Assembly: GCA_020438425.1 (NCBI GenBank)
Contig: JAGQUQ010000002.1
Coordinates: forward strand, 1-64,000
Reading direction: 5' to 3'
DNA length: 64,000 nt
Source of the DNA: Solirubrobacterales bacterium
GTDB lineage: Bacteria > Actinomycetota > Thermoleophilia > Solirubrobacterales > 70-9
Shown here: piece by piece, positions 11,091 to 16,328 of the stretch
Numbering within the stretch: position 1 is the stretch's first letter
Layout of the letters: every line of letters begins with the position of its first letter
The notes under the pieces: model-generated
Seen by the model: only the letters and a program-made list of their open reading frames with translations
What the model was told of the DNA's origin: nothing
Databases searched by the model: none
Position numbers and translations under genes: made by a program

Positions 11091-11876
11091 ATGAGCGAGA
11101 CCGAACTCAATGTGGTCTGTAAGTCATGCGGGGCGGAAGTCAGCCCCTACGTGACCGAGTGCCCCTACTGCGGCGCCCGGGTGCGAAAACGTGCTCCCGA
11201 CCTCGAGCGGGGAGGCGACGGCGGGCTCGAACCAAAGCAGTCGCGCCGCGAGAAGCGCCGTGACGAGAAGGCACGCCAGAAGGCGGAGAGAACGGCCCGG
11301 CCGGCCCGCGCCGAATCGCTCGGCAACCGGCCCTGGGCGAGCATCGCGCTGATTCTGATCCCTGCCGTTGCGATGATCGTGCGGATCGCCACGGGCAGCC
11401 TGCTCGAGGACTTCGGCGGGGTCGTGGTTCCATTCGACGAGGAGTGGTGGCGCCTGATCACCGCGCCCTTTGCCTACCTCAGCGTCGGCTACCTGTTCGC
11501 GGTCGGCCTCGCGCTCGCGCTTTTCGGTTCGAGGCTGGAGCGCCGGCTGGGCACGGTTCCCGTCTTCGTGCTGCTGGTGGCATGCGGGGCGCTCGGGGTC
11601 CTGGCCGCCTCCGCCGTGGCCGACCAGCGGGATGTGGTCACGGTGATCGCCGGCGGCAACGGGATCGCCCTCGGGGCGATCGGCGCCTGGTTTGCCGCCA
11701 ACCGCGCCGCCCTCAAGGCCGAAGGCGAGTGGGTCGACCTGGCCGGCGTCCTGATTGCCGCCCTGGTCATCCTGCTGCTGCCGGTCGTGGTGCCGACCGC
11801 CGATTTCTGGTCCGGCCTGGCCGGCGGGCTGGTCGGGCTGCTGGCGGGGTTCGTGGCCGCTCGCTTCGCCCGTTAG
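11091..11876 (+). CDS. Zinc-ribbon fused to a rhomboid-fold membrane protein lacking catalytic residues
   Basis: 261-residue protein. The N terminus is a zinc ribbon (C-K-S-C-G and C-P-Y-C-G, about residues 9-30), followed by a basic linker and six hydrophobic segments with rhomboid landmarks: W-W-R-L-I-T-A-P-F, L-F-G-S-R-L-E-R-R-L-G, G-G-N-G-I-A-L-G-A-I-G-A-W and S-G-L-A-G-G-L-V-G-L-L-A-G. In active rhomboids the third motif is G-x-S-G and the last helix carries the catalytic His (A-H-L-G-G). Here Asn replaces Ser and the His is absent, so it is probably a pseudoprotease. Divergent from the aldolase; ATG at 11091 chosen. Confidence 0.8.
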   Translation: MSETELNVVCKSCGAEVSPYVTECPYCGARVRKRAPDLERGGDGGLEPKQSRREKRRDEKARQKAERTARPARAESLGNRPWASIALILIPAVAMIVRIATGSLLEDFGGVVVPFDEEWWRLITAPFAYLSVGYLFAVGLALALFGSRLERRLGTVPVFVLLVACGALGVLAASAVADQRDVVTVIAGGNGIALGAIGAWFAANRAALKAEGEWVDLAGVLIAALVILLLPVVVPTADFWSGLAGGLVGLLAGFVAARFAR

Positions 11877-13017: not shown

Positions 13018-13022
13018 CCGTG

Positions 13023-13046
13023 GTCATCCGGCGAAGACCGGATGAC
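13023..13046 (-). terminator. Hairpin between the UPF0173 and sigma-factor genes, probably ending the sigma gene
   Basis: GTCATCCGG (13023-13031) pairs with CCGGATGAC (13038-13046), loop of six bases (TCTTCG on the minus strand). It lies just beyond the stop of the minus-strand sigma gene. There is no strong U-tract. Confidence 0.55.
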
Positions 13047-13052
13047 ATGCAG

Positions 13053-14552
13053 TTAGTTAACCGGGGCCTGCGGTGTGGTCGGCGTGTCCGGCATCGGGGC
13101 CGGGCTCGGCGAGGTCGGGACCACCGGAGTGGCCGGATCGACCGCGACCGGGGCGGACGGGGTCGAGCCCGGGGTCTGCGGCTCGGTCGGGATCTCGGTC
13201 GGGACCGTGGCCGGACCGTCGTTCACGATCTCGTCGGGCGGGTAGGTCGTGTGACCTTCGAAGCCGTCTCCACCTTCATCGGTGGCCGGACCGGGGGCGG
13301 TGCCCTGTTCGACCGGCTGGGCGGCCAGGTCCTCCGGATGGGTGACCGGCGGAACCGTCTCGGTGCCCGTCTCGGGGGTCACGGCCTCAACCGGATCGGT
13401 TGCCGGAACCTCGGCCGAAGCCTTGTCCAGCTCCGGCTCGGGGGCCACTTCGGTCGCGGGGACCGCGGCGTGGAGCGGCTTGGCCGGATCGGTGGCCGCC
13501 AGGGTCTTGCTCTGGGTGCCGGAGTTGCTGTCAACCGGGCTGGTGGACACCTTCTCCTTGACCTCGACCGCACCGGCGGTGATGACCGCAGCGGTGACGA
13601 CACCGGCCAGGGCCTTGGCGCCTACCGCGCTGGTCACTGCGCCGATGCCCGAAGCGGCACCTGCGCCGGCGCTCACGGCGGCGGCTCCGCCGGCGGCACC
13701 GGCTCCGGCACCTGCGGCACCGGTTCCGGCGGCACCGCCACCGAGACCGAGCTTGGCCGCGATCGCACCCTTGAGGGCGACCAGGGGGCCGATCGGCATC
13801 AGAGCCGCGAGGGCCTTGTTGTCATTGCGAAGCTGTTTGCGGAAGGCCGAGCATTCCTCGCAGTCACGGACGTGACGGCGAACCGGCCCGGAAGCCTTGG
13901 CCAGGCCTTCGGCGGCCTCGGCCAGCTCGACCCGGACTTCGCCACAGGTCAGCATGCGGGCCTGGCTGGCTTCGGCCAGCGAGATGCGGGCCCGAACCAG
14001 CAGCGACTTGACCGAGGGCACGGTGGTGTCCATCGCCTCGGCGATCTCCTCGTAGGAGAGAGCGTCGATCTCACGCAGGAGCAGGGCGGCGCGCTGGGTT
14101 TCCGGAAGCTTGGTCACGTCCTGCAGGAGCTGACGGAACTCCTCGCGGTTGTGGACCTTCTCCGCGGTGCCGGCTTCGGCAACCATCGGAACCATGTCCA
14201 TTGACTCCTGGGCGACGGCCCTGGGCCGGCGCAGGTGATTCAAAGAGCGGTTGCGGGCGATCCGGTACAGCCAGGGACGAAGGTTGATCTCCCGGTTGTC
14301 CGCCATCATCGCCTTGTAGGCGTTGACGAAGACTTCCTGAAGAACATCCTCGGCGTCCTCGGTCGAGCCGATCATCTGCCGACAGAAACCGAGCAGACGG
14401 GCCTGGTACCGATCGACGATCGTGTCGAAGGCTCCCGCGTTGCCGGCTCGCACCATGGCGACCAGCTTCTCGTCGCCTTGAAGCTTCAGCAGGGGCGACT
14501 TGCGGGCGAGAAGGCCTCGTCGTGCCGCGTGATTTAGTGCTGATGCTTCCAA
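13053..14552 (-). CDS. ECF sigma factor fused to zinc-finger anti-sigma-like domain, membrane segment and Pro/Thr tail
   Basis: 499-residue fusion. Sigma region 2 is at about residues 35-105 (A-F-D-T-I-V-D-R-Y-Q-A-R-L, D-A-E-D-V-L-Q-E-V-F, R-P-W-L-Y-R-I-A-R-N) and region 4 at about 145-200 (L-P-E-T-Q-R-A-A-L-L, L-S-Y-E-E-I-A-E-A-M, V-K-S-L-L-V-R-A-R). Then comes a zf-HC2-like module (C near 210, H-V-R-D-C-E-E-C near 235), an Ala/Gly-rich hydrophobic stretch (about 265-345) that probably crosses the membrane, and a 150-residue Pro/Thr/Glu-rich tail likely outside the cell. Normal ECF factors are about 180-200 residues. I infer self-inhibition relieved by an extracytoplasmic signal. Confidence 0.88.
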   Translation of the reverse strand: MEASALNHAARRGLLARKSPLLKLQGDEKLVAMVRAGNAGAFDTIVDRYQARLLGFCRQMIGSTEDAEDVLQEVFVNAYKAMMADNREINLRPWLYRIARNRSLNHLRRPRAVAQESMDMVPMVAEAGTAEKVHNREEFRQLLQDVTKLPETQRAALLLREIDALSYEEIAEAMDTTVPSVKSLLVRARISLAEASQARMLTCGEVRVELAEAAEGLAKASGPVRRHVRDCEECSAFRKQLRNDNKALAALMPIGPLVALKGAIAAKLGLGGGAAGTGAAGAGAGAAGGAAAVSAGAGAASGIGAVTSAVGAKALAGVVTAAVITAGAVEVKEKVSTSPVDSNSGTQSKTLAATDPAKPLHAAVPATEVAPEPELDKASAEVPATDPVEAVTPETGTETVPPVTHPEDLAAQPVEQGTAPGPATDEGGDGFEGHTTYPPDEIVNDGPATVPTEIPTEPQTPGSTPSAPVAVDPATPVVPTSPSPAPMPDTPTTPQAPVN

Positions 14553-14731
14553 GGGACTCCTTTTGACTGGGGACCTTGCGGTCCGGGTTTCCTCCTGTGC
14601 TTACGGAAACACCGTACCCAGCCAAATGTAGCGGTCTCTAAACGGGAATATTCCAGTTTCTAAAGATTGGGCTTACGTCCCCATTCTACCCCTGTTTGCC
14701 CGCTTACAACCGCAGGTTCTACCCTTCAGGG

Positions 14732-14816
14732 GCCCGGATGGCGGAATGGTAGACGCAGCGGCCTTAAAAGCCGCAGTCCTGAAAGGGGCGTGCGGGTTCG
14801 AGTCCCGCTCCGGGTA
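14732..14816 (+). tRNA. tRNA-Leu(UAA)
   Basis: 85-base class II tRNA with a long variable arm. The acceptor stem pairs GCCCGGA (14732-14738) with TCCGGGT (14809-14815), the first pair being G-U, with A as discriminator. The anticodon stem GCGGC/GCCGC encloses CTTAAAA, anticodon TAA. The T arm has GGTTCGAGTCC. CCA is not encoded. Confidence 0.95.
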
Positions 14817-14912
14817 TTTCCTCCATTAACCCGAAGGATGTGAAGCGGCCGCCGCGGGTTAGGGCTAGGCTTGCGACATATTGGCGCGTCAGATCAGAAG
14901 GGGAGTAGCGAG

Positions 14913-16328
14913 TTGACCAAAGAACGTCCGCATCTCGGTTGGGTTCGTTTCATCACGATTCTGGCCGGTTTCTTCACCGTGCTGGCGATTCTCTCCACCT
15001 GGGTCGACCGTCAGGTCTTTGACACCCAGGAGTGGGGCGACACCTCACTGAAGCTCCTGCAGAACCCCGAGATCCAGCAGCAGGTCGCTACCTACGCGGT
15101 GGATGAGCTCTACGCCAACGTGGACGTGCAGGGCGAACTCGCGAAGGGCCTCGACGAACTCAACTCGAATCTCGGTGACACGCTGGCCGGGCCGTTGGCC
15201 GGAGCGGCCAGGCAGGGCGCCGACAACCTCGCTCTCCGGGCCCTCGAAAACGACAAGGTCCAGTCGGCCTGGCAGTCCGCCAACATCGCCGCCCATCAGA
15301 CCTTGATCGACGTGATCGAGGACAAGGGCGAGTTCACCAGCACCAGCGAGGGACAGGTCGAGCTGAAACTGAAGCCCCTGATCATCGAGATCGCCGATCA
15401 GGTCGGGCTCGGTGACCAGGCGAGAGACAAGATCCCCGACTCGGTCGGCAACGTCAAGATCGTCGAGTCGAAGGAGCTTTCCCAGGTCCAGACGGTCGCC
15501 CAGTTGATTCACGGCCTCGCGCTGGTCTCGGGGCTGCTGGCCCTCGTCCTGATCGCCCTCGCCGTCTGGCTGTCACCCGGATACCGCTGGCTGACCCTGT
15601 TCTGGCTGTCCGTCGCCCTGATCCTCGCCGCCCTGATCGTCCTGGTCCTGCGTTCGGTCGCCGGCAACGTCCTCGTTCCCGAGCTGGCGGATCCGGATAT
15701 TCAGCCGGCTGCGCATGCGGCCTGGGACATCGCAACCGAACTGCTCAAGTCGGTTGCCTGGGGGGTGATCTGGCTCGCGGTCGTGCTGCTGGTCGTCGCC
15801 TGGGTAATCGCCCCCACCAAGCCTTCCGGGAAGGTCCGGGAGTTCCTCGCGGTTCCCTTCGGCCAGTACCCGGCCGCCACCTTCAGCCTGCTCGGGCTGG
15901 CCGCATTCATCTTTCTGATCATGGGCGCCGGAGACGGCCGCGAGTTCCTGATCCGGCTGGTCATTGTGCTGATGGCCGGGGCCGGGTTCTGGTTCTTCCG
16001 GCGACAGATCATGCTCGAATTCCCAGACGCGGACTATTCGGGCCTGAGGGAGTTCGGCGAGCGAACCCGCGACAAGGCGAAGAACGCCTGGGCCGGGAGG
16101 CCGAAGAACATCCAGATGCCCAAGCTCGGGGGCAAGGATGGCGACGGCGGCGCTCCCGGAGGCGCGTCGCAGCCCGAAGCGGAGACCGCAGTTCTCGGGT
16201 CCACCCCGGCTGCGTCCGAGGAGAGCCGGCTCGATCAGCTCGAGAAGCTCGGCAAGCTCAAGGACGCCGGCATCCTCGACGACGAGGAATTCGCGGCCGA
16301 GAAGAAGAGGATTCTCGGAGGCGATTGA
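14913..16328 (+). CDS. Polytopic membrane protein with C-terminal SHOCT domain
   Basis: 471-residue protein. I place the start at TTG 14913, which has GGGAG seven bases upstream; the frame is open from 14871. The first membrane helix is near residues 9-32. A long extracytoplasmic helical domain (about 35-190, with V-D-V-Q-G-E-L-A and D-K-I-P-D-S-V-G-N) is followed by about five to six transmembrane helices, a basic linker (R-D-K-A-K-N-A-W-A-G-R) and a C-terminal SHOCT module (L-E-K-L-G-K-L-K-D-A-G-I-L, E-E-F-A-A-E-K-K-R-I-L). SHOCT domains are thought to mediate oligomerisation. Function unknown. Confidence 0.85.
   Translation: MTKERPHLGWVRFITILAGFFTVLAILSTWVDRQVFDTQEWGDTSLKLLQNPEIQQQVATYAVDELYANVDVQGELAKGLDELNSNLGDTLAGPLAGAARQGADNLALRALENDKVQSAWQSANIAAHQTLIDVIEDKGEFTSTSEGQVELKLKPLIIEIADQVGLGDQARDKIPDSVGNVKIVESKELSQVQTVAQLIHGLALVSGLLALVLIALAVWLSPGYRWLTLFWLSVALILAALIVLVLRSVAGNVLVPELADPDIQPAAHAAWDIATELLKSVAWGVIWLAVVLLVVAWVIAPTKPSGKVREFLAVPFGQYPAATFSLLGLAAFIFLIMGAGDGREFLIRLVIVLMAGAGFWFFRRQIMLEFPDADYSGLREFGERTRDKAKNAWAGRPKNIQMPKLGGKDGDGGAPGGASQPEAETAVLGSTPAASEESRLDQLEKLGKLKDAGILDDEEFAAEKKRILGGD

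Follow-up and report, generated by a model that had tools for sequence, protein, structure and literature searches.

Sigma factors of the extracytoplasmic function (ECF) type that carry C-terminal fusions are known from several families. In the available part of PMC5826349, ECF52 is described as a sigma factor joined to a zinc finger, a membrane region, a Pro-rich extension and a carbohydrate-binding module, and release by proteolysis is mentioned as an earlier proposal. ECF48 and ECF53 are presented in the accessible text of PMC8999054 as sigma factors whose C-terminus is fused to a zinc finger (likely ZAS) and to one or two membrane helices, with proteolysis expected; according to these texts the best understood protein among ECF48, ECF52 and ECF53 is SCO4117, and its release mechanism is unproven. 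A search for literature on a Solirubrobacter ECF sigma factor with a zinc finger found none, and what the search yielded on Thermoleophilia sigma and anti-sigma factors, judged by title, holds nothing on fused ECF factors. Reported here is a protein encoded on the minus strand of a 64,000 nucleotide stretch of a Solirubrobacterales genome (contig JAGQUQ010000002.1, positions 1 to 64,000; the whole stretch is termed the window). It is real and conserved, probably a one-protein sigma switch of known architecture, belongs to a distinct clade and has a dedicated promoter. The order of its parts, sigma domains, zinc domain, linker, membrane-like segment and tail, is conserved across Solirubrobacterales and near-universal in the order.

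The open reading frame (ORF) is real and complete, with 499 codons, a TTG start and the sequence AAAAGGAG four bases upstream of that start. All 20 upstream regions compared have a start codon at the corresponding place in the alignment. The source genome is a 2.57 Mb assembly in 250 contigs, 82.8% complete, with Solirubrobacterales as its nearest named relatives. Of the 121 genomes searched (own genome counted), 111 have a match at E ≤ 1e-30. Proteins with at least 180 bits in tblastn, identical ones collapsed, left 40 distinct Solirubrobacterales orthologs, five of which fall short of the full tail, and the L062 locus looks frameshifted in the tail. Mean identity of the 40 to the window protein is 0.81 in sigma region 2, 0.88 in region 4, 0.75 in the zinc domain and 0.66 in the membrane-like segment, and drops to 0.24 over tail residues 336–499. 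The initial annotation had placed a sigma factor, a zinc module and a tail in one polypeptide, and the complete ORF and its orthologs bear this out. The H-x(3)-C-x(2)-C module it had pointed to is likewise confirmed, as C203, H227, C231 and C234, the upstream cysteine included, are identical in all 40.

Membership in the ECF group is given by TIGR02937 (sigma70-ECF), with 86.9 bits against a curated cut-off of 42.9. The predicted model aligns with solved sigma region 2 domains at up to Z 14.3 (root mean square deviation 3.1, 93 aligned residues). Beyond region 4, the AlphaFold model predicts, at low confidence, zinc-domain helices at residues 203–214, 222–230, 232–251 and 255–267. A class I anti-sigma domain consists of three helices and a linked helix 4 that binds sigma region 2, according to the available text of PMC7406223; the predicted four-helix order agrees with this layout and is counted in favor of an anti-sigma domain. 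Profile-profile comparison pairs 59 columns of the zinc domain with its counterpart in ECF52-like proteins (probability 93.7, E = 1.8e-7) and 30 columns with a stand-alone anti-sigma protein encoded in its own genome (probability 44). The Pfam zf-HC2 family (PF13490) matches only three of 26 orthologs, with a best E-value of 0.024.

The membrane segment had originally been sought in the Ala/Gly stretch, which is rejected because its polarity is too high for a membrane span (best 19-residue Kyte-Doolittle mean 1.23). The candidate in its place is a V/A/I segment at about residues 311–331, with a best 19-residue mean of 1.64, or 1.75 with N-terminal context, in the window protein. This segment is uncharged and its borders are sharp and conserved, K313 and then TAGAVE, in an alignment of 26 rows (the window and 25 of 26 close loci; L062 omitted). 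Hydropathy alone does not prove membrane insertion, and insertion at 311–331 is what we infer from comparison: besides the conserved borders, a membrane segment is clear (2.55) in a tailed sigma paralog from the same genome, an ECF52-like protein shares the part order, and another paralog has a tail with an SH3_3-like end. At the outer end of the segment, T325, G327 and A328 are present in all 37 rows that reach the site (three of the 40 end earlier), and residue 326 is A in 36 rows (T-A-G-A) and V in one (T-V-G-A). Signal peptidase sites have small residues at −3 and −1 (PMC8844934, available part), and the TAGA motif may, as a hypothesis, mark a first cut of signal-peptidase type. Most paralogs have Gly at −3, and TAGA is strict among orthologs only. 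The Pro/Thr tail, expected to be about 150 residues, was found to be of 167 residues, with 20% Pro, 15% Thr, a net charge of −22 and neither Cys nor Arg.

Upstream of the gene is a bipartite element with a spacing of 11. In 23 of 25 upstream regions across the order (the window and 24 loci) it reaches a score of 12 or more out of 15, while at other spacings from 6 to 17 at most 11 of the 25 do so; the motif was derived from the same regions, which makes a shuffle test partly circular. AAC-N17-GTC/GTT resembles the promoters of ECF factors. A search of 31 genomes, many of which overlap with those that yielded the motif, gave 19 exact matches: 17 directly before the sigma gene, and two elsewhere, in genomes G003 and G018. 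The promoter stays with the sigma gene though the neighboring tRNA gene points the opposite way in L050, L052, L054, L056 and L057. In the window's own genome there are two sites with at most one mismatch, and a reversed control pattern also gives two; the second site was dismissed as a target, as it lies inside an apparent ribosomal protein gene and is likely due to chance. At that stringency hardly any other target, or none at all, can be seen. An ECF-type promoter with fixed spacing across the order, nearly exclusive to the sigma gene, is new here. Its conservation and dedication to one gene suggest positive autoregulation, with putative recognition by the sigma factor itself.

From these features a one-protein switch, with an anti-sigma domain in cis, a membrane anchor, an outer tail, proteolytic release and autoregulation, appears probable, although with some reserve. 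The zinc domain would act as a class I anti-sigma domain that holds sigma regions 2 and 4 in cis, with its helix 1 on region 4 and helix 4 (residues 255–267) on region 2. The Ala/Gly linker would join this sigma-zinc unit to the membrane anchor at 311–331, and the tail would lie in the cell wall. An envelope signal may expose the outer end of the anchor, where a first protease, perhaps signal peptidase at TAGA, would cut. An RseP-type protease would then cut in the membrane, and the freed sigma factor would direct RNA polymerase, also to the promoter of its own gene, giving positive autoregulation. Release by proteolysis is plausible. There are two M50 protease matches in the window's genome, one of them in an ORF with an HEAGH motif. 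The features of the locus are collected in Table 1.

Table 1. Parts of the fused sigma factor gene and its upstream region, in window coordinates.
Feature	Residues	Position	Strand	Basis or remark
ORF (499 aa)	1–499	13053..14552	-	ECF sigma, zinc anti-sigma-like domain, membrane-like segment, Pro/Thr tail
Bipartite ECF-type promoter CGCTAC-N11-TACGGTGTT		14608..14633	-	Upstream of sigma gene; probable autoregulatory promoter
Ribosome binding site AAAAGGAG		14557..14564	-	Read in sequence; kept in close relatives
Sigma region 2	46–109	14226..14417	-	Pfam PF04542, 8.9e-17, above Pfam cut-off
Sigma region 4	146–190	13983..14117	-	Pfam PF08281, 1.4e-14, above Pfam cut-off
Anti-sigma-like zinc domain	203–267	13752..13946	-	C203, H227, C231, C234; profile match to ECF52-like proteins
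Ala/Gly linker	268–308	13629..13751	-	Best 19-residue Kyte-Doolittle mean 1.23
Candidate membrane segment	311–331 (about)	13560..13622	-	Conserved K..AGVVTAAVITAGAVEV; low-confidence predicted helix 311–326
A-G-A at outer end of segment	326–328	13569..13577	-	Signal-peptidase-like site, hypothesis
Pro/Thr-rich acidic tail, presumed extracytoplasmic	333–499	13056..13556	-	Composition

The genes around the sigma factor were compared in 25 loci (L037–L061), where rhomboid-like, metallo-hydrolase and, by look, PPX-like neighbors recur. The rhomboid-like neighbor in the window (11091–11876, plus strand) is a zinc-ribbon and rhomboid-domain protein (PF01694, 3.8e-16). It was considered as the active release protease and rejected, as the catalytic Ser of the rhomboid GxSG motif is replaced by Asn or His in all 18 sequences compared. 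Judged by its sequence, it is a conserved pseudo-rhomboid near the sigma gene. A tRNA-Leu(TAA) gene is found near the sigma gene in 20 of the 22 loci scanned, out of 26 (L037–L062), and one of the two exceptions begins within the sigma gene; in the window the tRNA is at 14732–14816 on the plus strand, and its orientation is flipped in some lineages. Further along, 14904–16328 (plus strand) encodes a membrane protein that ends in a SHOCT domain (6.5e-8), a neighbor kept in close relatives. A 394-codon ORF at 13020–14204 (plus strand) runs antisense to the sigma gene and is probably a consequence of high GC.

The window's genome has 11 sigma region 2 matches, and two of these are proteins with the order sigma, zinc, membrane, tail. 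The second (L003:1486–2913, contig 240) has a strong membrane segment and a zinc spacing like that of ECF52-like proteins. Another protein of this genome (L002:1456–2910, contig 21) passes from sigma to a membrane-like segment and a Gly/Ser tail and has no zinc domain. Of 51 genomes, 17 have this zinc-less tailed type at E ≤ 1e-40; it forms a sister clade with support 100/97. A relative assembled in a single contig (G053; loci e.g. L186–L190, L204–L260) shows 52 sigma region 2 matches, 21 with extensions of 150 residues or more; 11 of the 21 carry HxxxCxxC, and eight of the 11 also have a segment of at least 1.6. These 11 zinc-fused sigma factors are a striking expansion. Outside the window's genome, the tail of paralog L189:884–2389 ends in an SH3_3-like domain (5.4e-6, 26.9 bits against a cut-off of 27), which suggests cell-wall binding and fits an outer tail. 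The sister group with segment and tail and without zinc domain, and the zinc-fused expansion in one relative, are new here.

Several results weigh against the proposed switch. The Pfam search does not reach the zinc domain in the window protein, a PDB profile search with this domain gave 0 matches at E ≤ 10, the model of sigma region 4 with the zinc domain has no good match among solved structures (best Z 3.8), and two AlphaFold models are weak (predicted local distance difference test, pLDDT, 65.8 and 71.3). The structure search neither supports nor excludes an anti-sigma fold, and a class I fold is to be read as predicted. The membrane-like segment is marginal in hydropathy: a value of 1.64 is attained by 1544 of 2000 shuffles of residues 246–345, and among 35 full orthologs no more than 22 come to 1.6, with 13 below it. 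No adjacent active protease was found beside the sigma gene. Finally, inhibition may not depend on the zinc domain alone, because the sister group without it keeps the membrane-like segment and the tail.

The marginal hydropathy would fit a soluble one-component redox or zinc sensor, whose zinc domain responds to cytosolic thiol stress and whose Ala/Gly, V/A/I and Pro/Thr parts form a disordered cytosolic extension. Model confidence is also low beyond residue 268, and the available text of PMC7406223 has the zinc motif commoner in soluble class I anti-sigma factors. However, the uncharged segment has invariant borders, proteins laid out alike, whether ECF52-like or paralogous, show their membrane segments more clearly or bear an SH3 domain of cell-wall type, and the tail is strongly acidic and devoid of Cys and Arg; a soluble sensor is therefore regarded as unlikely. 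The sister clade speaks for a different reading, namely membrane sequestration without an intramolecular clamp, in which the tether keeps the sigma factor off RNA polymerase or lets it act while membrane-bound, and the zinc domain has a structural function or binds a partner. Zinc motifs of membrane anti-sigma factors may indeed be structural (PMC7406223, available part), but the invariant ligands and the 59-column alignment with ECF52-like zinc domains weigh against this reading, and we find sequestration alone quite improbable. An artefact, i.e. a chance fusion of two genes, a sequencing error or a mis-called ORF, has in its favor that high GC gives long spurious ORFs on both strands. It is scarcely credible here, because the same uninterrupted ORF is conserved in 40 distinct proteins from many assemblies and the locus is syntenic, with start and promoter conserved as well. 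The one-protein switch thus remains the preferred reading.

Fused sigma/anti-sigma proteins have hardly been studied. The private conserved promoter is a ready reporter and the zinc-less sister group a natural comparison; together with the near-universal version of the protein they make it testable whether the anti-sigma domain or the tether inhibits. A wider and rather doubtful proposal is that Solirubrobacterales hold a lineage-specific, expanding repertoire of tethered sigma factors outside the ECF52 clade, in which the window factor would amplify itself through its private promoter and be freed at TAGA, and the tether alone would serve the sister clade as anti-sigma factor.

Among described systems, ECF52 (SCO4117, Streptomyces coelicolor) has in common with the window protein the sequence of sigma factor, zinc finger, membrane segment (a candidate one in the window protein) and Pro-rich extension, as far as the available part of PMC5826349 describes it, and both are from Actinomycetota. 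An ECF52-like homologue with an NPCBM ectodomain has the same part order, Ala/Gly linker included. The label ECF52-like is based on this one NPCBM-bearing homologue, not on the SCO4117 sequence. A zinc finger after sigma region 4, as in ECF52, is found in the window protein (C..HxxxCxxC in 40 of 40), whereas the carbohydrate-binding module of ECF52 is absent from the full protein in Pfam at E ≤ 1. The HxxxCxxC follows region 4 after about 28–31 residues in the window family and after about 35–41 in ECF52-like proteins, the end points of region 4 being set slightly differently in the two. In a tree of the sigma domains with 69 rows, which holds 19 of the 20 ECF52-like loci and from which L229 and L203 were removed, the 19 ECF52-like rows form their own clade (support 99/99) and the window protein lies outside it. 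The tree behind the zinc-less sister clade had 57 rows, with 5 of 20 ECF52-like loci reaching the profile cut-off and two canonical rows too short. One common origin for all the fusions stays compatible with the tree test (p-AU 0.372), which by the same value does not demonstrate an origin independent of ECF52.

ECF48 and ECF53 have a layout like that of the window protein, compared by their description in the accessible part of PMC8999054 only. IutY (ECF243, Pseudomonas putida) unites a sigma factor and a membrane anti-sigma part and is processed by Prc and RseP, and its experimental characterization makes a release mechanism for fused sigma factors realistic. It is a Gram-negative iron-starvation system, and the available text of PMC8999054 describes no zinc motif or Pro/Thr tail for it. 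The A-G-A of the window protein has the form of the signal-peptidase site of RsiP in the part of PMC8844934 available; RsiP and RsiV are separate anti-sigma proteins, whereas the window protein is a fusion with a candidate cut site. The initial annotation had seen a complete switch unlike the usual two-protein system. A single-polypeptide switch is indeed the best reading, but it is neither new in architecture nor an exception of its kind, having been published for ECF48, ECF52 and ECF53 with the same proposal of proteolysis.
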